From: Flavobacteriales bacterium
GTDB lineage: Bacteria; Bacteroidota; Bacteroidia; Flavobacteriales_D; Sanyastnellaceae
Direction of reading: 5' to 3'
Assembly: GCA_018402085.1 (NCBI GenBank)
Contig: JAGYJM010000002.1
Span: 3,301,501-3,365,500 of the forward strand
Length of the DNA stretch: 64,000 nt
The notes beneath the pieces were generated by a model. The model did not search any database. It saw only the letters and a program-made list of their open reading frames with translations, and was not told the origin of the DNA. This document shows positions 18,569-31,073 of this stretch, one piece after another (the first letter of the stretch is position 1; each line of letters opens with the position of its first letter). The translations under genes and the position numbers were made by a program.

Positions 18569-18583
18569 TTGATTGCAAAAAGA

Positions 18584-18603
18584 AGGGGGCACGGGCCCCC
18601 TTT
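18584..18603 (-). terminator. Rho-independent terminator
   Basis: A hairpin with stem AAGGGGGC/GCCCCCTT and a four-base loop is followed on the minus strand by TTCTTTTT. It lies about 25 bases past the stop at 18628 and should end the adhesin operon transcript. It overlaps the region just before the radA start. Confidence 0.8.
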
Positions 18604-18627: not shown

Positions 18628-21600
18628 CTATTGTCCGCGTGTGATCGTCACAGAACCTTTGTATTCGAAACCGTTAGGCAAAAGAAGCACGTACCAGTAT
18701 GTGCCGTCGCTGGCATCTTCGCCCTTCCAGTCTCCGTTTTCGTAGTCTTGGCTTTCATAAACCTTGTTTCCCCATCGGTTATAAACGTACAACTGTACGT
18801 CATTGTACACATCGAGACCATCAATCACAAAGCTCTCATTTGGAGGTGTACCGTCAGGGGTAAAGATGTTCGGAATATTGATTTCACAGGGGTCAATGAC
18901 TACTTCAAAGCTGGCAGAAGCTGAGCCGCAGGGGTTAAATGCAGTGCCGTTGAGGGTCAGGATTTGCCCCCAGCAATCTTGCGAAAGCTGAGATGAGGCA
19001 AGACCAAGATCATCAGATCCGCTCAGGTTGATGACCTCTCCGGCACAGTTGATAGACCAGGAGTAGTCGATGCCAAAGGTGGCATTGAGTGAGAAGGTAT
19101 TCTCTATTTCCGGACAAAGGGTAATGAGTTCGTTTGGAGAAGGGCTCAGTTCGGGAGATTCTCCAATGAACACGTTGGTGCAGTATGTTTCCGTAGCGCA
19201 GTTACCCGGGTCAGTTATGGTAGCGCACAATTCACCCTGTGCGCTGGTTTGATAGACATAACCCTCTGAACCATCCGGCCACACGACCGTCCAGCCATCA
19301 GACGGAAGGTCAGCCACAACCGTTGCTACATCACCACCATCGCAATCAGGGGTAGAGGGATCAAAAGGGTCAATTTCGGCGGCAATGCTAAGTTCTGCGC
19401 AGTCTTCTACACCTTCAGGAAAGCACTGGTTGCTGATGTTTACACAGTATTCTCCTGTTTGATCCGCTTCAAGGGTCTCCCCATCAGCCATGAGGTTGTC
19501 ACCATTAAATGACCAGGTGTAAACAAGGTCGTCTGTATCATTGTCGATCGGATCAAGCGTAACAGCACCGCCCTCGCAAAGTATTTCATCTTCGAGAACA
19601 GGATCTTCAGGCTCAAATTGAGCAATGATTGAAAGCGGGGCACTGGCTGAGCCACAGCCATTTTCAATGGTCACTTCGCCATCAACTACCGTAGGCGTAT
19701 CGAAACTGTAGGTGTTGGTCAGTACGTTATCTTGCCCCGGAGTTGGCCAGTCAATGGTTGCGGTACCTCCAAGATCTTCAATGGTTGCCGTGATGCTGGC
19801 GTTCTGTGTGCCGCAAAGCAAAAACTCATCTTCGCTAAGAGAGATCGTAGGTGCCTCAGTAAACTCGAGTTCGTAGCAATATTCTACGCCACAGGCCGCC
19901 TCACTGAAGCAAATCTCATAAAGACCGTAGTCGCTCGGGGTGAAGTCGGTGTCAAACTGGGTCTCGTCTGAGAAGTCACCGTCAGGGCCACTGACGATGT
20001 TCCACTCACCGAAGGCCGGTTCTGCACTACATCCTGACATTCCCTCGAAGAGAATCTGTCCGTCTGTAAATGGTGGCGAGGGGTTCACCCCATTCTGGTT
20101 GCTGCAGTTAAAGAACTCTACATCGTTGAATTCGTCACCGGAGCCGGAGCTGATGTACTCAATAAGGATCTCCTGGTTGCCCTCAATAGGGACGGTAAGG
20201 ATCTGAAACGACGTGGTCGCCGTCAGAATTTCCACAAGCTCGCCATCAATGTAAACATTGAGGAAAGATCCTGACCACCCTTCGTCGTTACTTGAAGACA
20301 TCCAGAAGGTGAGGTTACCCTCTGACGGGTTGCTGAATCCGCCGTCAAATGTCACGGTCTCGAGGCCTTCACAATAAGCGCCTGACCAGATATCGTCAGG
20401 AATGAATGCGTCTACGCTTTGCACAATGAATACACGCTGGCCAAGGCAGCCGTTTTCTTGTTCAACCTGCAGGCGGTAGATTCCCGGTGTCACTTCTGCG
20501 GTCTGCCCATTGTCAGTAACCACTTCACCGCCGCCGCCATCCCAGTCGGCCTCCCAGATGTATGAATCATAGTCTTCTTCAACGGTTACTGTAGCAAGTT
20601 CATCTGAACAAACCGGGTTCGGGTTGATGTCGATGTCAGGCAGAATGTAAGGGGTCTGATCAATAGGAATGAGTTCTGAGGCAGAACACCCCTCCTCAAT
20701 AGAAGCCTCTACAAATACCTGTCCGCCCGTACTCACTTCACAGCTCGGTGTGGTACACCCGGTGCTCCAGACGTAGCTGTCAAAACCTTCAGAGGCCTCC
20801 AATACAGTAGATGCACCGGCGCAAATCGTGGTGTTTCCGGAAATTGTGAGTACCGGCAGCTCGACGTCAATCACATCCACGACGATCACTAGCTCGGTCG
20901 CCGCTTCAGGTGAACCGTTGTCGGTGGCCGTGATGGTAATGGTGTTGAAACCGAGGTTGTCGGGCCCGCCGACATATCCGGCGACGATTGACGCGTTGGC
21001 GCCGTTTAATATCTCATCAATGAATAATCCGTCTTCGTTACCGTCAACCGAGGCTTCTATCGTAACCTGCTGGTTGGTTTCAGGCGCAAGGAATTGCAAG
21101 TCAATCTCAAGGGTATCGTTCTGGCAAAGGGTGATGGTATCACAGCCTAGGTTTGCCGTTGGAATGGGGGGTACGTTATTCTGCTGGCTTACCGTGCTGA
21201 AGGTAAACTGCTTGTTGGTCAGCCAGTACACACCATCTTGCTCTGAAGGAGCATCACCGTAAGGCCCGTTGTAGGTAAAGTCGAGGAAGTTGAAACGGCC
21301 ATACTGAATATTCGGACCCGTCGTGGAGGCGCGATCGGCTCCAACGGTGCCGGGGTTCGGTCCGCAACAGCCGGAGTTACCACCCACATCACCATGTGCC
21401 CACCCCATATCCCGGTAGCAAAACTGCACATTGTTGTCTCCCGGCAAATAATCACTGTCTTCAGGAGTGAAGATGATCTGAAAGGTGTTGGTCTTGTCGT
21501 CATGGTTGTTGAAGTAGCCGACGTCAATGAAGTTTACGAATACCGCCTCCGCAGTCACTTTATACCATAATTCGCCCGTTGCACGAAAGTCAGCGTCGGC

Positions 21601-22167
21601 CCAGTACGCAGCCAGCTGGTCGTATGTTGCACCCGGAAACTCCTCGGGAGTCCAGTCAATGTAACCGCCGCCAAACGAGACCGTACCTTTTGAGTTGATG
21701 TAAAAGTTCGGGTAGTTCTGGCCGTACAGGTTGAAATTCCAGATTTCACCGTCTTCGATAAGGGTGATCGGACCCAACCATGAGTCTACATCCGGGCCCG
21801 CACCGCCCGATTCTACCCAGTCATTAGTCGTTACCAGGGTGTAGGTGTCATCGGGTTCAACCCAGCAGTCGCAGCCTGAGGCAGAGGCCATTCGAGCCTG
21901 CTTGCGCTGCTCGCGATCTTTGGCAGTCTCCTTTTTGCGCTCTTGAATGATTTCGATCACGCGGCTTTCGTCGTAACCCTCCCAGGCACGAAAAACAGAC
22001 CATTCGTCGCGCGTCATCATCCAGACGGCTGCTTCGTAAGTTCCATATTTGGCGATTATAGCCGCAGCTTCCTTTTCGCCTTTCTTCGCTTCAACTGGGT
22101 TTGCAGTTTGTGCAGAGACAACGATGCTCAGCACGAGACCCGTTGCGATCAATAAAAATTGCTTCAT
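18628..22167 (-). CDS. large nidogen-like T9SS type B surface protein
   Basis: The ATG at 22167 opens a signal peptide (MKQFLLIATGLVLSIVVSAQ); a GTG seven codons upstream is also in frame. The protein of about 1179 residues has a Glu/Lys-rich helical N-terminal region, a nidogen-like (NIDO) domain (residues about 130-270: NFYINSKGTVSFGG, ELWYKVTAEAVFVNF, NTFQIIF, NVQFCYRD), a series of Ig/PKD-like Cys-containing domains, and a type B sorting domain (IPNIFTPDGTPPNESFVI, VYNRWGNKVYES, GTYWYVLLL). It should be a secreted adhesin or matrix protein. It is the last gene of the operon led by an ECF sigma factor and is followed by a strong terminator. Confidence 0.87.
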   Translation of the reverse strand: MKQFLLIATGLVLSIVVSAQTANPVEAKKGEKEAAAIIAKYGTYEAAVWMMTRDEWSVFRAWEGYDESRVIEIIQERKKETAKDREQRKQARMASASGCDCWVEPDDTYTLVTTNDWVESGGAGPDVDSWLGPITLIEDGEIWNFNLYGQNYPNFYINSKGTVSFGGGYIDWTPEEFPGATYDQLAAYWADADFRATGELWYKVTAEAVFVNFIDVGYFNNHDDKTNTFQIIFTPEDSDYLPGDNNVQFCYRDMGWAHGDVGGNSGCCGPNPGTVGADRASTTGPNIQYGRFNFLDFTYNGPYGDAPSEQDGVYWLTNKQFTFSTVSQQNNVPPIPTANLGCDTITLCQNDTLEIDLQFLAPETNQQVTIEASVDGNEDGLFIDEILNGANASIVAGYVGGPDNLGFNTITITATDNGSPEAATELVIVVDVIDVELPVLTISGNTTICAGASTVLEASEGFDSYVWSTGCTTPSCEVSTGGQVFVEASIEEGCSASELIPIDQTPYILPDIDINPNPVCSDELATVTVEEDYDSYIWEADWDGGGGEVVTDNGQTAEVTPGIYRLQVEQENGCLGQRVFIVQSVDAFIPDDIWSGAYCEGLETVTFDGGFSNPSEGNLTFWMSSSNDEGWSGSFLNVYIDGELVEILTATTSFQILTVPIEGNQEILIEYISSGSGDEFNDVEFFNCSNQNGVNPSPPFTDGQILFEGMSGCSAEPAFGEWNIVSGPDGDFSDETQFDTDFTPSDYGLYEICFSEAACGVEYCYELEFTEAPTISLSEDEFLLCGTQNASITATIEDLGGTATIDWPTPGQDNVLTNTYSFDTPTVVDGEVTIENGCGSASAPLSIIAQFEPEDPVLEDEILCEGGAVTLDPIDNDTDDLVYTWSFNGDNLMADGETLEADQTGEYCVNISNQCFPEGVEDCAELSIAAEIDPFDPSTPDCDGGDVATVVADLPSDGWTVVWPDGSEGYVYQTSAQGELCATITDPGNCATETYCTNVFIGESPELSPSPNELITLCPEIENTFSLNATFGIDYSWSINCAGEVINLSGSDDLGLASSQLSQDCWGQILTLNGTAFNPCGSASASFEVVIDPCEINIPNIFTPDGTPPNESFVIDGLDVYNDVQLYVYNRWGNKVYESQDYENGDWKGEDASDGTYWYVLLLPNGFEYKGSVTITRGQ

Positions 22168-22251
22168 TTCACCAATGGTAAGTTTCACGTCCGGTTTCAG
22201 TTGAAAGATGCTTTCTGCCTAGTCGTAGCTGACAAATATAGTGTTTACAAT

Positions 22252-23394
22252 CTAACGTTCCAGTCGAACCACCTGCCGCTCATTGAAGGGCTGCCCACGT
22301 TCCGAAACGGCTCGCAGTACAAGGATGTAGTTTCCGTCCGGAAGCTCATTCCCTGAAATGTCAGCTCCATTCCACCCGGGGCCTTCTCCATACTGGCTGA
22401 AGACTTCCCGGCCATTGGAATCGTAAACAATCATCTGCTCAATCACGACCTTGCGCGATCCATTTCCAAGGGTGAGGCGGTCATTGACACCGTCGCCGTT
22501 GGGCGTGAATACGTTGGGCAGTTCGAGGCGGGCAGGAAGGTAGACCTCCAGCTCTCTGTTCAATTCTTTCTCTTTGGTTCCGTTGCGATAGGCGCGCAAT
22601 TGCAGCGCATAGACGCCTTCGCGGTCAAACTGGTGGTACACTTGCGCACCGTCTGCGATCACTTCGCCATCGATCAGCCAGCTGTAGTTGTACCCCTCAT
22701 CTCCGGGTGCCGAAGCACTGAAGCGGTAAAGCAACGATTCACGATCTTCGGTTTCAACAGATATCGTCGGCTCCGGCAACGCTTCTTCCCGCTCATCTTC
22801 AGGTGCAGAGGTGCCTGTTGATGAATGCTGAACCGACGGGTCGTGAGAGGGCGAGACCTCACGTTCTTCGGCGCCACGAATGAGCGGACTCCCGCTTTGC
22901 TCTTCGACGCGTTCGATGGTAATGGTGTCGGCTGCCGGATCGCTGTTGATGGCTTGTACCCGCTCGCGTGAAGGCTCGGCAATGGCAGCTGAATTGGGGT
23001 GGTCGCTCTGAGCTTCTTCGGGTTCCGATGAGGGTTCGGGTTTTTTGCCGGGTTCTTTTTCCGGCGATAAAACGCCGGATGTGGACGCGTCGTTTTCAGA
23101 CGGAATGGCTTCGGGCTCCATGATGACCGTCGCATCCGCCGCTTTTGCGGCGTCATCATCACCTGTCGCAACGAAATACACGATCGCCGCCGCCGGAATG
23201 ACGGCCGTGAGAAGACCAATCGCCCACTTCGCGGTGGCCGTCAGTCCGGAAAAACCCGTGCTTCCTGACGCTCCCCCCGCCGGGGCAGACGGCAACTGCT
23301 GCTGCACCGCCTCCCAGACAGACGCGTCAACCGGTGCTTCGGCCTCTTGAAGCCGCTCTTGCATCAGACGTATGATTTCCTCTTCTTTCTTCAT
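22252..23394 (-). CDS. membrane-anchored anti-sigma-like protein with PKD and T9SS type B domain
   Basis: This 380-residue protein has no cleavable signal peptide. Residues 1-50 form an acidic, probably cytoplasmic helical region (W-E-A-V-Q-Q-Q-L); one transmembrane segment lies at about 54-75 (WAIGLLTAVIPAAAIVYFVA). An E/P/S-rich linker (80-220), a PKD-like domain (about 220-290, SWLIDGEVIADGAQVYHQF) and a type B gliding-motility domain (VFTPNGDGVNDRLTLG, GNYILVLRAV) follow. The start overlaps the stop of the ECF sigma gene by four bases, the usual arrangement of anti-sigma factors, but no zinc-binding anti-sigma motif is seen. The sorting domain on a non-secreted membrane protein is odd. 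Two hairpin repeats lie in the linker. Confidence 0.78.
   Translation of the reverse strand: MKKEEEIIRLMQERLQEAEAPVDASVWEAVQQQLPSAPAGGASGSTGFSGLTATAKWAIGLLTAVIPAAAIVYFVATGDDDAAKAADATVIMEPEAIPSENDASTSGVLSPEKEPGKKPEPSSEPEEAQSDHPNSAAIAEPSRERVQAINSDPAADTITIERVEEQSGSPLIRGAEEREVSPSHDPSVQHSSTGTSAPEDEREEALPEPTISVETEDRESLLYRFSASAPGDEGYNYSWLIDGEVIADGAQVYHQFDREGVYALQLRAYRNGTKEKELNRELEVYLPARLELPNVFTPNGDGVNDRLTLGNGSRKVVIEQMIVYDSNGREVFSQYGEGPGWNGADISGNELPDGNYILVLRAVSERGQPFNERQVVRLER
23061..23082 (+). repeat. hairpin-GGATGC repeat, copy 5
   Basis: CCGGCG-ATAAAA-CGCCGG followed by ATGT, inside the anti-sigma-like gene. It is in reverse orientation to the gene and encodes SGVLSP. Confidence 0.7.
23132..23151 (-). 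repeat. hairpin-GGATGC repeat, copy 6
   Basis: On the minus strand GCCGC-AAAA-GCGGC-GGATGC, about 50 bases from copy 5 and in the opposite orientation. It encodes AAKAADA in phase 0. Confidence 0.8.
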
Positions 23395-23924
23395 GGTTGC
23401 TCAAGGCTGCTTATCTGCATCTGCAGGTGCTTTCGCGCTTTAAAAAACTGGGTCTTTGACGTGCTCTCCGAAATGCCAAGCTGCGCAGCTATCTCTTTAT
23501 GGCTGTAGCCTTCTATGGCGTAGAGGTTAAATACCGTGCGGTAGCCGTCAGGAAGCTGCGCAATCAGTTTCAGCAACTGATCGGTGGCTAGTTTCGCATA
23601 CACAGACACATCTTCTTCGAGAAAGTCAGCCTGTGCGTCGGTATCTTCGTGAAAGAAGTGCTTTTTTTCACGACGCAGATACAAGAGGGAGGTATTCACC
23701 ATAATGCGCCGAATCCAGCCACCCAAGGCTCCGTCTCCGGAGTATTGACCCAACTTTTCAAAGACCGTAATAAAGCCTTCCTGCATCATGTCAGACGCTG
23801 TTGAGGCATTGCCCCCGTAACGAAGGCAAATAGCCATCATACGCGGACTAAACCGATCATAAAGTGCCTTCTGTGCACTCCGGTCGCCCTTGCGGCAAGC
23901 ATCAACAAGTTCTCGATCCGACAT
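23391..23924 (-). CDS. ECF-type RNA polymerase sigma-70 factor
   Basis: This 177-residue protein has sigma region 2 (LYDRFSPRMMAICLRYGG, DMMQEGFITVFEKL) and region 4 with its helix-turn-helix (LPDGYRTVFNLYAIEGYSHK, EIAAQLGISESTSKTQFFKA). No region 1 or 3 is present, which places it in the ECF group that redirects RNA polymerase to a dedicated regulon. The gene is followed by an overlapping membrane protein and then a T9SS adhesin, so the regulon probably involves the cell surface or the T9SS. A TACCTTTA element (23931-23938) lies six bases before the start. Confidence 0.93.
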   Translation of the reverse strand: MSDRELVDACRKGDRSAQKALYDRFSPRMMAICLRYGGNASTASDMMQEGFITVFEKLGQYSGDGALGGWIRRIMVNTSLLYLRREKKHFFHEDTDAQADFLEEDVSVYAKLATDQLLKLIAQLPDGYRTVFNLYAIEGYSHKEIAAQLGISESTSKTQFFKARKHLQMQISSLEQP

Positions 23925-23938: not shown

Positions 23939-24042
23939 GGATACATCTATGCTTCGGAAAGTTGTCTGAAGAACGTGATTTTCTGCTCAGGGATTTTCAG
24001 CGAACTATTTGGCGAAACAACGATTTATTCAGGCTTTCAGGC

Positions 24043-24056: not shown

Positions 24057-25847
24057 ATGGAGAACATCCGCAATTTCTGCATTATCGCGCACATCGACCA
24101 CGGCAAGAGCACGCTGGCTGATCGATTGCTGCACATCACAGGTACGATTTCTGATCGCGAACTTCAGGAACAGACGCTCGATGATATGGACCTTGAGCGA
24201 GAGCGAGGCATTACCATCAAGTCGCACGCCATTCAAATGAAGTATGCGCAAGAGGGCAAAGAGTACATCCTGAACCTCATTGATACCCCCGGGCACGTTG
24301 ATTTTTCATACGAGGTCTCCCGTTCAATTGCAGCCTGCGAAGGGGCCTTGCTCATCGTAGACGCCTCCCAGGGCATTGAAGCGCAAACCATTTCGAACCT
24401 TTATCTGGCAATCGAACATGACCTCGAGATCATTCCGATCCTGAATAAAATGGACCTTCCGAGCGCGGAGCCCGAAGAAGTGACAGACCAGATTGTTGAC
24501 CTCATCGGGTGTGAACGGGAAGACGTGATCCCGGCCTCCGGAAAGACCGGCCTCGGGGTAGAAGACATCCTCAAGGCTGTAGTGGCGCGTATTCCAGCGC
24601 CAAAGGGTGACCCCAATGCACCGCTTCAGGCAATGATCTTTGACTCTGTGTTCAATTCGTTTCGCGGGATCATCGCCTACTTCAGAATCATGAACGGGCG
24701 CATTAAGAAAGGTGACCTCGTGAAGTTTATGAACACCGGGGGTACTTACCATGCTGATGAAATTGGCGTGCTGGGCTTAGATCTCATACCACGGAAAGAC
24801 CTTAGCGCCGGAGATGTAGGCTACATCATTTCCGGCATTAAAAACGCACGTGAAGTGAAGGTCGGAGACACACTCACTCTGAAAGGAAACCCCTGTGAAA
24901 AGGCAGTGAAAGGGTTTGAAGATGTGAAGCCCATGGTCTTCGCCGGTGTCTACCCTGTGGATACCGAAGACTACGAAGAGCTGCGCTTCTGCATGGAGAA
25001 ACTCCAGCTGAATGACGCTTCGCTCACGTTTGAACCGGAAAGCTCGGCAGCACTCGGTTTCGGCTTCAGATGCGGATTCCTCGGAATGCTCCACATGGAA
25101 ATCGTACAGGAACGCCTCGAACGGGAGTTTGACATGTCAGTGATCACAACGGTGCCAAACGTGTCGTACACAGCGCAGCACAAAAACGGTGAGGAGATCG
25201 TCATCAACAACCCGAGCGACATGCCTGACCCTTCTAAGTTAGACTGGGTCAAGGAGCCCTACATCAGTGCCCAGATCATCACCAAAGCTGATTACGTTGG
25301 TGCGGTCATGACGCTGTGCATTGAGAAAAGGGGTATCCTGAAAAACCAGGTTTACCTTACCTCAGACAGGGTAGAGCTTACCTTTGATATGCCGCTTGGC
25401 GAGATCGTCTTCGATTTTTATGATAAGCTCAAATCAGTTTCACGCGGCTATGCCAGCTTTGACTACTTCGCTGCTGATTACCGCGAATCGCATCTCGTAA
25501 AGCTTGATATTCTCCTGAACGGCGATCAGGTGGATGCCCTTTCGGCACTGATTCACCGCGACCACGCCTTTGAACTCGGGAAAAAGATCTGCCTGAAGCT
25601 GAAAGAGCTCATCCCTCGCCAGCAATTCATGATTGCCCTCCAGGCTGCGATCGGCGCGAAGATCATCGCACGGGAGACCATCAAGCCGCTCCGTAAAGAC
25701 GTAACCGCCAAGTGTTACGGTGGTGACATCACCCGTAAGCGTAAACTGCTTGAAAAGCAGAAGAAGGGTAAGAAGAAGATGCGTCAGGTCGGAAGCGTAG
25801 AGGTGCCGCAGGAGGCCTTCCTCGCTGTGTTGAAACTCGACAGCTAG
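24057..25847 (+). CDS. lepA: translation factor LepA (elongation factor 4)
   Basis: LepA/EF4 is a ribosome-binding GTPase that affects initiation and back-translocation. The start at 24057 gives the canonical N-terminus [20 protein letters not shown] (G1), followed by [10 protein letters not shown] (G2), DTPGHVDF (G3) and NKMDLP (G4). Domains II, III and V and the LepA-specific C-terminal domain ([18 protein letters not shown]) are present; 596 residues is normal. A TATTTTTG promoter element lies six bases before the ATG. The stop codon overlaps that of convergent rlmN at a CTAG, so the two share their last bases. Confidence 0.98.
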
Positions 25848-26902
25848 GCCGTTTTTTTCTTGGCGATATCGTTTTTATTAGCCAACTGTCCGCAGGCGGC
25901 ATCGATGTCTTTGCCACGTGATCGCCGCACATTGACCACCAGGTTGCAGCGCTCCAGAAAGGCGGCGAAAGCATCTACATCTTCTTCGTTAGCTTGCTGA
26001 AACTCACCGTCGTCAATCGGGTTGTACTCGATGATGTTGATCTTGCACGGCACATTCTTGCAGAATTCAGCGAGTTCGCGGGCATCTTCCAGCTTGTCGT
26101 TGAAGTCTTTGAAGATGATGTACTCGTAGGTGACGCGAGTGCCCGTGCGCTCATAGAAGTATTTCAGGGCATCAGCCAACGCCTCCAGATTGTTGGTGTC
26201 GTTGATGTCCATGATCTCACTGCGCTTCTTGTCATTGGCTGCATGCAATGAAAGGGCAAGGTTGAAGCGCACTTCGTCATCACCCAATTTTCTGATCATC
26301 TTGGCAATGCCTGCCGTGCTCACCGTGATCCGTTTCGGCGACATACCCAAGCCCGGAGTTCCGGTGATCTTGTCAATGGCACCCATCATGTTTTTGTAGT
26401 TCAGCAGCGGCTCTCCCATGCCCATGAAGACGATGTTCGAAAGCGGCACATCGTAGCGCTCTTCAGCGAGGCGACTCAGGTGCACCACCTGATCGTAGAT
26501 CTCACCCTGCTGCAAGTTCTTCATGAGCTTGAGCTTGCCCGTAGCGCAGAACTTGCAGGCGAGACTGCAACCCACCTGGCTTGAAATGCAGGCCGTCATC
26601 CGGTTGGTGGTAGGAATAAGCACCCCCTCCACCACACCGCGCTCTACGTCAAAGGCGCACTTGATGGTTCGGTCGCGGCTGACCTGCTCATCCGCCGCTT
26701 TTGCGGCGCTCAGAATAAACCACTCATCAAGTTTATCACGCAACTCTTTGCTCAGGTTGGTCATCTCGGAGAAGTCCATCACTGACTTCGTCCACAACCA
26801 CTCATAGACCTGCTTCGCGCGAAAAGCCTTCTCTCCCTGATCGGTCAGAAAAGCACTTAACTCGCTGAGCGTCAAATCGCGGATGTCTTTCTTTTTGAGC
26901 AT
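25844..26902 (-). CDS. rlmN: 23S rRNA (adenine2503-C2)-methyltransferase RlmN
   Basis: RlmN is a radical-SAM enzyme that methylates C2 of A2503 in 23S rRNA and of A37 in some tRNAs. The start at 26902 ([15 protein letters not shown]) fits the family and lies five bases from a TATATTTG promoter; the frame extends 30 codons further up without support. The [11 protein letters not shown] radical-SAM cluster (C-x3-C-x2-C), [14 protein letters not shown] and the C-terminal AACGQLA with the catalytic Cys are all present. A hairpin repeat at 26688-26707 encodes AAKAADE in a region before [10 protein letters not shown]. Length is about 352 residues. Confidence 0.97.
26688..26707 (-). repeat. hairpin-GGATGC repeat, copy 7
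   Basis: On the minus strand GCCGC-AAAA-GCGGC-GGATGA in rlmN, encoding AAKAADE in phase 0. Confidence 0.8.
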
Positions 26903-26906
26903 GGTG

Positions 26907-26914
26907 CAAATATA
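26907..26914 (-). promoter_or_regulatory. TAnnTTTG -7 promoter element
   Basis: On the minus strand this reads TATATTTG, a perfect consensus match, four bases before the rlmN ATG at 26902. It fixes the rlmN start and predicts a leaderless transcript. Confidence 0.65.
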
Positions 26915-27060
26915 CGGCTTAGAAGTTCGGGGATCACGGCGGGCTACAAACCGCTCACGGCTGTCTGTATACTGACAATCATCAGATCTCAATGTGCATC
27001 AGGTTACATAAAAAGCCCAGGCTGTATACTTTCTTTGCGGTTATTCCAATCAACTACCTG

Positions 27061-28835: not shown

Positions 28836-29201
28836 TTAGTCTTGCGGACGGAAGACGAAGCGGTAACGCATTAGGAGCTCACCTTCAGTCTGAAGGTTGA
28901 GCCGAATGTCTTGAAGTTTTCGTGTGACGTATTGCGCCAGCTCTGGGTGGTCGGTCTGGATGGTCTTGATGTCGAGACTGCCATCAGTATTCACTGAAAA
29001 CTGCACGTCTACCTTACCGTAGAGGGCTTTGCCACGGGCGTCAACCGGGAAGATGACGGTGCGGTCAATGGCTTTGCGCACCCGGTGCTCGATTTTTGAG
29101 GTAGTAAGAGAGTCGCCCCTGCCATTTTCTCCACTTGAAGCGGCGGTTACAGGTGCGCTGAGGAGGAGTGCGAAGAGGATTGAGATTAAAAACGGTTTCA
29201 T
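28836..29201 (-). CDS. small periplasmic protein, TonB-C-terminal-like
   Basis: The ATG at 29201 (MKPFLISILFALLLSAPVTA) begins a signal peptide; a TTG two codons earlier is less likely. The mature part, about 100 residues, resembles the TonB C-terminal fold: F-P-V-D-A-R-G-K-A-L-Y-G-K-V-D-V-Q-F-S-V-N-x-D-G-S-L, followed by a helix and a final strand. There is no transmembrane anchor or proline-rich region, so it is not a full TonB. It may be a periplasmic envelope or partner-binding protein. The function is uncertain. Confidence 0.7.
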   Translation of the reverse strand: MKPFLISILFALLLSAPVTAASSGENGRGDSLTTSKIEHRVRKAIDRTVIFPVDARGKALYGKVDVQFSVNTDGSLDIKTIQTDHPELAQYVTRKLQDIRLNLQTEGELLMRYRFVFRPQD

Positions 29202-29241
29202 AGCCAAGCGATTTATGTGATTTCAACCGTATGACGCACAA

Positions 29242-29271
29242 AGGGCCCAATCGTTACAAACGAGGGCCCTA
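29242..29271 (-). terminator. probable terminator hairpin
   Basis: A two-step hairpin, outer stem AGGGCCC/GGGCCCT and inner stem TCGTT/AACGA, lies downstream of the LytTR regulator on the minus strand. The T-run after it is short (TTTG), so it may be a weak or assisted terminator. Confidence 0.55.
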
Positions 29272-29299
29272 AAATGGAGGAACGGTCAGAAAGAGACCT

Positions 29300-30028
29300 T
29301 CAGCGGATGATGCCGAAGACTTTCGAAACCGCCGCTTTGAAATCGTCTTTCCGCCGGGTGCTGATACGGCACTCCATGCCGTTGATGAGGTGGCATTTTC
29401 GTCGCCCGAATTCGCATGAGCGCACCATTCTCAAGTTGACGATAGCGCTGTTGTGCACGCGGTAGAACGAACTATGGCGCAATGATTGCTCCAGGCTCTT
29501 CAGATTGCGCGAAACCACCATACGTTTGCCGTCGATCAGGTGCAGCCGCGTGTAACTGCCCATCCCTTCAGCCATCACCAGGTCGCTGTGGCGCACGTAA
29601 TTCATTTTCCCATTCTCGAAAACCTCAAGCTTTCTGAAATACTCCGGTGCGGCCGATCTGCTGCGGCGGTCTTGTTCAGCCATCAATCTACTGATGCACG
29701 CTTCAAGATCTTCTGATCCACATGGCTTGACCAGGTAATCAAAGGCACTTCTTTTAATAGCGTCAAAGGCGTGTTTATCGTCGTCTGCGCAGTAAACAGT
29801 ATAATAAGGACGCGATGGCAGGCGGTCAATGATCTCAAACCCGGTTTCGTCTTCGAGAATGACATCCATAAACAGCAAATCAGGTTGCATTTTGCGTAAG
29901 AGATTATATGCCTCTTGCGCAGATCCGGCCTCCGCGACGACACTCACCTCGGGGTGCTCTTCTGCCAACATGCGGCATAGTCCTTCGCGAAAACAAGGGT
30001 CGTCATCGACAATAACAGTAGAAATCAT
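29300..30028 (-). CDS. LytTR-family response regulator
   Basis: The start at 30028 (MISTVIVDDDP) is preferred over the ATG three codons upstream. Residues 1-115 are a receiver domain with the acidic pocket VDDDP, the phosphoacceptor Asp in LLFMDVIL, and the lysine in YLVKPCG. Residues about 140-240 form a LytTR DNA-binding domain (VSRNLKSLEQSL, FYRVHNSAIVNL). LytTR regulators in Bacteroidota usually pair with a histidine kinase of the LytS/YehU type; none is adjacent here. The neighbours are a TonB-like protein on the same strand and a divergent beta-barrel gene that it could control. Confidence 0.93.
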   Translation of the reverse strand: MISTVIVDDDPCFREGLCRMLAEEHPEVSVVAEAGSAQEAYNLLRKMQPDLLFMDVILEDETGFEIIDRLPSRPYYTVYCADDDKHAFDAIKRSAFDYLVKPCGSEDLEACISRLMAEQDRRSRSAAPEYFRKLEVFENGKMNYVRHSDLVMAEGMGSYTRLHLIDGKRMVVSRNLKSLEQSLRHSSFYRVHNSAIVNLRMVRSCEFGRRKCHLINGMECRISTRRKDDFKAAVSKVFGIIR

Positions 30029-30233
30029 TGAAAACATGCTAGTTCGTTTAAAGGTTGGTTAGACTTGGCTTTCTGAGTAGTGAAATTGATACAGAGTAAC
30101 TTTACCTTCAATATTGAGTTAGGATTTGGCTCAATGAGTTTAGAATTCGGAAATCAGAAAAGAATATTCGGCCGAGCTGTAACGAACGGGGTAAGCACTC
30201 CGTCATACCACCAAACAAGCAAAAACGAAGACG

Positions 30234-31073
30234 ATGAAAAAGTTATGGATCGCAATGCTCGGTATGCTGATGGCTACTACGGCCATGGCTCAGGAAGAAG
30301 GGAACGACACCACTAAGGTGAGGATGGGCTCTTTTGAAGTGAACATTCGGAGCGGTGTAGATATCGACGATGATGAGAAAGAGGAGCCGAAAGACACCAT
30401 ACCCGATGAAAACAACTTCAGCCACTGGGGAGGGATAGACGTAGGTACATCGCTGCTCCTCAATGCTGACGGAGGCACAGGTCTTCCTGAAGGTGCAGGT
30501 TGGCTTGACCTCGACGAAGCGCGTTCATTGACCTGGAGCATTAACTTCGCTGAAGTGCGTCTGCCTATCTACAAAGAGCACGTTGGTATCGGCACGGGGC
30601 TCGGACTTACTTACCGAAGCCTTGGGTTCAGTGATAACATCAGCCTACTCGCCAACAGCGACTCTACCTACGCCGTAGATGTGCCTGACTCCCTCTATAC
30701 CTTTGATCGAAACAAACTACGAGGTACCTACATTCGAGTGCCTGTGCTGCTCGAGTTCAACACCAGCAGAATACCATCGAAGAATTTTCACGTGTCAGTT
30801 GGTGCAATCGGAGGCTTGCGTATCGGATCGATCACCAAGCAGATTTATGATTTCGAAGGACAGAAGTACACCGATCGGGTAAAAGATGACTTCAACCTCT
30901 CACCTCTTACCCTCGACGCCACAGCACGAGTGGGCTACCGCTGGGTCAACCTGTGGGCGACTTACTCGCTGACACCACTTTTTGAAAACGGAAAGGGTCC
31001 GGAGGTTTACCCGCTAACCGTAGGTCTGAGCTTCTCGATCTTTGACGACGGAGACCCTGACGGCTGGGATTGA
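30234..31073 (+). CDS. outer-membrane beta-barrel protein, PorT-like
   Basis: This 279-residue protein starts with a signal peptide (MKKLWIAMLGMLMATTAMAQ), then an acidic segment (DDDEKEEPKDTIPDEN) and a series of amphipathic strands ending in aromatic residues (LPIYKEHVGIGTGLGLTYRS, YIRVPVLLEFN, YPLTVGLSFSIF). This is the appearance of a small outer-membrane barrel of the PorT/OmpA-like superfamily; whether it is a transport, adhesion or assembly protein cannot be told. It is divergent from the LytTR regulator and ends in a strong UUCG-loop terminator. Confidence 0.8.
   Translation: MKKLWIAMLGMLMATTAMAQEEGNDTTKVRMGSFEVNIRSGVDIDDDEKEEPKDTIPDENNFSHWGGIDVGTSLLLNADGGTGLPEGAGWLDLDEARSLTWSINFAEVRLPIYKEHVGIGTGLGLTYRSLGFSDNISLLANSDSTYAVDVPDSLYTFDRNKLRGTYIRVPVLLEFNTSRIPSKNFHVSVGAIGGLRIGSITKQIYDFEGQKYTDRVKDDFNLSPLTLDATARVGYRWVNLWATYSLTPLFENGKGPEVYPLTVGLSFSIFDDGDPDGWD

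Follow-up and report, generated by a model that had tools for sequence, protein, structure and literature searches.

A conserved ECF sigma factor gene coupled to a putative anti-sigma membrane protein with a modified T9SS-type C-terminal domain in Bacteroidota

The window analyzed here, the whole of a 64,000-nt stretch of DNA to whose positions the coordinates below refer, carries on its minus strand a gene for an ECF sigma factor of 177 aa (23391..23924), a gene for a putative anti-sigma membrane protein of 380 aa (22252..23394) and, as a conserved neighbor, a gene for an adhesin-like T9SS cargo protein of 1186 aa (18628..22188); every feature of this locus given below lies on that same strand. 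The first two genes share a 4-base ATGA overlap at 23391-23394. Identification of the sigma factor draws upon Pfam and NCBIfam matches as well as its homologs: the protein comprises regions 2 and 4 only, as defines an ECF sigma factor, each above its family cut-off (in Pfam, 50 bits for Sigma70_r2 and 67 bits for r4_2), and TIGR02937 likewise scores above cut-off in NCBIfam. Identity of 44-53% relates it to Bacteroidota ECF sigma genes that precede anti-sigma genes of the same superfamily, and its tie to the ECF21 group is one of association with Dma-like genes only.

The 380-aa partner has been delineated by Pfam and NCBIfam matches, homolog alignments, and an AF2 model. Its N-terminus forms an acidic, putative anti-sigma domain of two helices (residues 1-34; 23293..23394), recognized from alignments, from the model, and from homology to the N-termini of the barrel-type proteins described below; helices are modeled at residues 2-17 and 24-33, and the alignments reveal the motif L..KL...E.PV....W..I...L, within which Trp27 is invariant. 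Hydropathy and charge bias place a single transmembrane helix, oriented N-in, at residues ~58-76 (23167..23223). This sole hydrophobic segment has 57 residues before it, no N-terminal signal peptide was found in the protein, and the cytoplasmic side of the helix is the more positive in 32 of 38 homologs, in keeping with the positive-inside rule. There follows a predicted periplasmic tether, acidic, proline-rich and, by AF2 pLDDT values mostly < 50, disordered (residues ~77-207; 22774..23166); values mostly under 50 span residues ~38-194 in all. A PKD-fold domain (residues ~208-284; 22543..22773) is assigned from a sub-threshold Pfam match (21.9 bits for the protein alone, under the cut-off of 27), from a family profile of the region, which scores 57 bits against PKD domains of known structure, and from the model, in which the region folds with pLDDT of about 90-98. 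The C-terminal domain (CTD; residues 288-380; 22255..22533), of the CHU_C or type B-like kind, matches PF13585 and TIGR04131 (CHU_C, 50.2 bits against a cut-off of 27; TIGR04131, 38.2 bits against 35) and is modeled with pLDDT of about 88-98. Together, tether and PKD domain separate the transmembrane helix from the CTD by 193 +/- 22 aa (n=38 homologs). A Foldseek comparison against the PDB yielded generic Ig/FN3-like matches only. The first-pass annotation had described an ECF sigma gene overlapping by four bases the gene for a single-pass protein composed of an acidic N-terminus, a linker, a PKD domain and a CTD, and these analyses confirm its coordinates, strand and domains. An open frame of 181 aa in another frame of the minus strand (window 22674-23219) overlaps the linker of the anti-sigma gene and is probably due to chance.

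A protein search of 100 relatives recovered full-length homologs of the 380-aa protein in the genus, the family and the order. In 27 family and order loci the sigma gene directly precedes the membrane protein gene, usually with an overlap, and the order of N-terminal motif, transmembrane helix, variable linker, PKD domain and CTD is kept; the same pair architecture is present in about 11 named genomes elsewhere. The search for this architecture beside other ECF sigma genes, suggested in the first-pass annotation, was thus productive and, given such recurrence, the pairing of sigma factor and membrane protein is not due to chance. A phylum-wide search with the full 380-aa protein returned mostly cargo CTDs. 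The genome itself contains a second pair (L231, G000:C2:925500-945000), in which a sigma gene with a GGCAAC-type element upstream is followed by a CTD-bearing anti-sigma gene, ASF2, and three large CHU_C genes. A third sigma homolog of the genome (L062; L232, G000:C2:1796000-1803000) is followed by a membrane protein of 240 aa that lacks CHU_C.

For a survey of neighbors across the phylum, 80 named homologs of the sigma factor were retrieved, and for nearly all of them the next protein has the same N-terminal motif and a transmembrane segment at about residue 40-110. The C-terminal parts of the 78 such neighbors comprise an OMP_b-brl_2 beta-barrel (26/78), CHU_C (13/78) and others, short tails included. 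Profile comparison of the N-termini of CHU_C-type and barrel-type proteins by hhalign gave 98.1% with an E value of 6.6e-14, and, with E<1e-3 as the limit, a profile of the N-terminal domain matched 23 of the 41 proteins of the barrel type; among background neighbors it gave 20 matches, the same number as there are anti-sigma genes in that set (20), and the matches listed were such genes. Since the N-terminal domain of the 380-aa protein has homologs in the ECF-linked anti-sigma proteins found throughout Bacteroidota, it is very probable that the protein acts as an anti-sigma factor, Dma-like in its architecture and with an end derived from a T9SS CTD, and this homology likewise makes the sigma/anti-sigma relationship postulated at the outset very probable; the protein would presumably inhibit the sigma factor of the window. 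When sigma factor and anti-sigma domain were modeled as a pseudo-fusion (L173, TAA stop read as Gly), the pTM was 0.56 and the N-terminal helices had pLDDT of 64-73, no gain over the helices modeled alone. Short tails, in proteins of about 240-280 aa without a recognized domain, occur at L115, L119, L124, L129, L130, L137, L163, L166, and L168; these homologs, from Dyadobacter, Fulvivirga, Ekhidna, Runella and relatives, represent a third design upon the same chassis.

Comparison with characterized regulators places the protein more precisely. In B. thetaiotaomicron, deletion of a Dma factor activates its cognate ECF21 sigma factor (PMC13088901). The window protein resembles the Dma factors, likewise of Bacteroidota, in the adjacent ECF sigma gene, the N-terminal anti-sigma domain, the transmembrane helix, the long disordered tether, and a C-terminus presumably directed to the outer membrane; moreover, its N-terminal domain is shared with barrel-type loci of Dma architecture, the homology being to these and not to Dma1 or Dma2 themselves. 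It differs in having a PKD domain and a T9SS-type CTD where Dma has a beta-barrel, and known Dma outputs are the formation of OMVs and PULs. Since a CHU_C domain stands in place of the outer membrane barrel, the protein has not been filed as a Dma factor. With the FecR-type anti-sigma factors of Bacteroidota it shares a single-pass design and a position beside an ECF sigma gene; unlike them, it contains no FecR or STN domain according to Pfam, and a TonB-dependent receptor was not seen beside the pair. In a literature search that covered few subscription papers, no account of a T9SS CTD on an anti-sigma factor was found. The pair is real and conserved, and represents a novel version of anti-sigma factors of the dual-membrane type.

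The C-terminal domain and the CTD of T9SS type B cargo, SprB among others, are homologous; such cargo is served by PorP/SprF shuttles (PMC12618676; PMC9143113). In F. johnsoniae, type B secretion depends on five conserved motifs, none of which is dispensable (PMC12618676). The anti-sigma CTDs keep four of the five, A, C, D and E (FTPNGDG, WDG, G-x-Y and the terminal strand), at cargo-like frequency, with the Trp invariant and the Tyr near-invariant. The exception is the site at which cargo CTDs have RWG, probably motif B of the F. johnsoniae set; here the window protein reads SNG (residues 326-328; 22411..22419, by CTD alignment). RWG is absent from all 38 anti-sigma CTDs, but among the distinct CTDs of the family's cargo proteins it is found in 45 of 46. 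Outside the family, strict RWG is found in 15 of 35 rows from other genomes of the class, two of these rows being anti-sigma proteins themselves, and an aromatic residue occupies the site in 30 of 33 cargo CTDs from such genomes. The robust form of the criterion is therefore an aromatic at the site and not strict RWG: overall, 75 of 79 cargo CTDs have one, compared with 0 of 38 anti-sigma CTDs, in counts that are not phylogenetically independent. A 281-aa protein held out for lacking RWG (L089) turned out to be encoded directly behind a sigma gene and to contain the anti-sigma domain. On a tree, built from few columns, anti-sigma and cargo CTDs form separate clusters (2 changes versus 28 in shuffles), with a single outlier, the anti-sigma CTD of L118, placed among cargo CTDs. 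The C-terminal Arg is missing in several anti-sigma lineages. The anti-sigma CTDs are thus modified, probably non-exported tags, and loss of RWG may equally mean that the domain has stopped binding the T9SS altogether.

These observations bear upon a rival account, in which the 380-aa product is a T9SS cargo or surface protein tethered to the membrane, with the sigma gene as no more than an incidental neighbor. Its CTD does pass TIGR04131, as such an account would have it; the protein nevertheless lacks a signal peptide and the RWG site, begins with 57 cytoplasmic residues bearing the conserved two-helix motif common to ECF-linked anti-sigma proteins, and is encoded in translational overlap with the sigma factor in many lineages, all of which render this account very improbable. 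The first-pass annotation had likewise held that the protein could not be ordinary T9SS cargo, and that view is borne out by the missing signal peptide, the N-in membrane anchor and the consistent loss of the RWG aromatic. The anchoring in the inner membrane sets it apart from type B cargo, as does the absence of a shuttle gene beside the pair: an adjacent PorP/SprF-like gene is common, if not universal, for such cargo. By another route, PorA and PorXY-SigP of P. gingivalis offer a precedent for a CTD protein with influence on a sigma factor: PorA, which bears a T9SS CTD, acts upstream of an ECF sigma factor controlling T9SS genes (PMC7712824). PorA differs in having a signal peptide and a surface location and in acting through a two-component system, and is not an anti-sigma factor (PMC7712824).

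Upstream of the sigma gene is an ECF-like promoter, GACAACTTT-N14-TATC (23940..23966), that is conserved in the family: the form GRCAACTTT-N14-YATC precedes the sigma gene in 12 of 12 family genomes scanned, and comparable elements precede it in other lineages. Because the element is found in all 12 genomes, autoregulation of the sigma factor is likely. With the strict promoter pattern, the sigma gene alone recurs in all 12 genomes, the 18 other sites comparing with 13 for a reversed-pattern control; the relaxed pattern gave 78 sites versus 64 in the control, and hence no second target was found. Nor did these 12-genome scans detect an ECF promoter in front of T9SS genes.

The adhesin gene that follows the pair encodes NIDO and CHU_C domains, by Pfam and NCBIfam, and a CTD of the RWG type. 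The first-pass annotation had proposed it as the regulated output of the sigma factor, and a related possibility is that the three genes form a circuit dedicated to the adhesin, the adhesin or its export being either signal or output. Consistent with both, the neighborhood is well kept: an orthologue lies directly downstream of the pair in 14 family loci, CHU_C genes are also downstream in L103, L104, L106, and L141, three CHU_C genes follow the pair at the second locus of the genome, and no terminator was found between the anti-sigma and adhesin genes in the window, where read-through from one into the other is possible. Against this, the adhesin gene has a -7 box of its own, TATATTTG (22233..22240), identified by conservation across loci. 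Its consensus, TAnnTTTG, known as the housekeeping -7 element of Bacteroidota, occurs right after the anti-sigma stop codon in 16 of 18 loci, as compared with 1.3 in shuffles. No ECF promoter was found before the adhesin gene; at the second locus, a GC-rich terminator-like hairpin with a T-run parts ASF2 from the first adhesin; and the adhesin is missing from two family loci as well as from pairs of the order's other families examined. The conserved box and the hairpin of the second locus suggest that the adhesin is probably transcribed independently, at least in part. The conserved neighborhood thus stands, while the proposal of a regulated output is weakened by the adhesin's own conserved housekeeping-type promoter, and we regard the adhesin-dedicated circuit as rather unlikely. 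A further terminator-like hairpin lies 3' of the adhesin gene (18583..18602), in a region whose match count is at chance level. In L186, L188, L189, L190, and L198, a very large CHU_C protein is also encoded directly upstream of the sigma gene.

SprA scored above cut-off in 11 of 12 CHU_C-type genomes, the exception, with a weak match only, being the MAG that contains L118; among barrel-type genomes it did so in 11 of the 21 taken first in the query, and genomes classed later were mixed. In the genome under study, CHU_C domains number 48 and PorP/SprF paralogues 15; no PorP/SprF paralogue adjoins the pair. Both the distribution of SprA and the PorP/SprF counts fit a T9SS role for the CTD, and sensing of T9SS state by this domain is plausible on circumstantial grounds: its descent from a tag, SprA in those 11 genomes, and the repeated adjacency of T9SS adhesins. 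The last two of these, together with the four motifs retained at cargo-like frequency, argue against a CTD-like domain devoid of any T9SS role, which an ordinary anti-sigma factor with a single membrane pass would use simply as an Ig-like periplasmic sensor or for protein-protein interaction, in response to some other envelope cue. Such a domain would, for its part, account readily for the missing RWG aromatic, the lost C-terminal Arg, the lack of an adjoining PorP/SprF gene, and the beta-barrels or short tails found on sibling proteins with the same N-terminus, and we consider it conceivable but doubtful. SprA of this genome is encoded outside the window in two adjoining open frames (G000:C2:2716693-2723858; model positions 3-1416 and 1414-2318), reflecting either an indel introduced during assembly or a genuine division of this T9SS translocon gene.

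Taken together, the data lead us to favor, as probable, an autoregulated ECF sigma factor controlled by a translationally coupled anti-sigma factor whose non-exported, tag-like CTD most likely reports the state of outer membrane secretion or of adhesins. According to this model, the two-helix N-terminal domain would bind the sigma factor and keep it at the inner membrane, the single transmembrane helix and about 130 disordered residues would cross the periplasm, and the CTD, not itself exported, would be positioned against the outer membrane, on its periplasmic side, and serve as sensor or anchor. There it would most likely report the state of the secretion and adhesin machinery through contact with the T9SS, possibly by competing with genuine cargo to dock on a PorP/SprF-like shuttle or on the SprA translocon. 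A change of state would release the sigma factor, by proteolysis or unfolding, and the freed sigma factor would first induce its own sigma/anti-sigma operon. Because many relatives have kept the pair, the cell may sense its own surface-secretion machinery by means of an altered tag that is not exported. More tentatively, such proteins might constitute a class of anti-sigma factors widespread among Bacteroidota that possess a T9SS, in which a tethered, non-exportable mimic of the tag directly senses occupancy of the secretion machinery and couples export to transcription within one protein. These ideas address the question of how Bacteroidota sense the state of the outer membrane and the T9SS: if true, a single tethered protein makes a sensor of an export tag, where other lineages have fitted the same chassis with a beta-barrel. 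The difference at the RWG site, meanwhile, provides a simple sequence test to distinguish regulators from cargo, both of which are annotated as 'T9SS type B sorting domain-containing'.

Elsewhere in the window, positions 28836-31073 encode a small TonB_C-like protein, a LytTR response regulator and an OMP_b-brl_2 protein, in an order conserved in the family beside lepA and the gene at 25844-26992.
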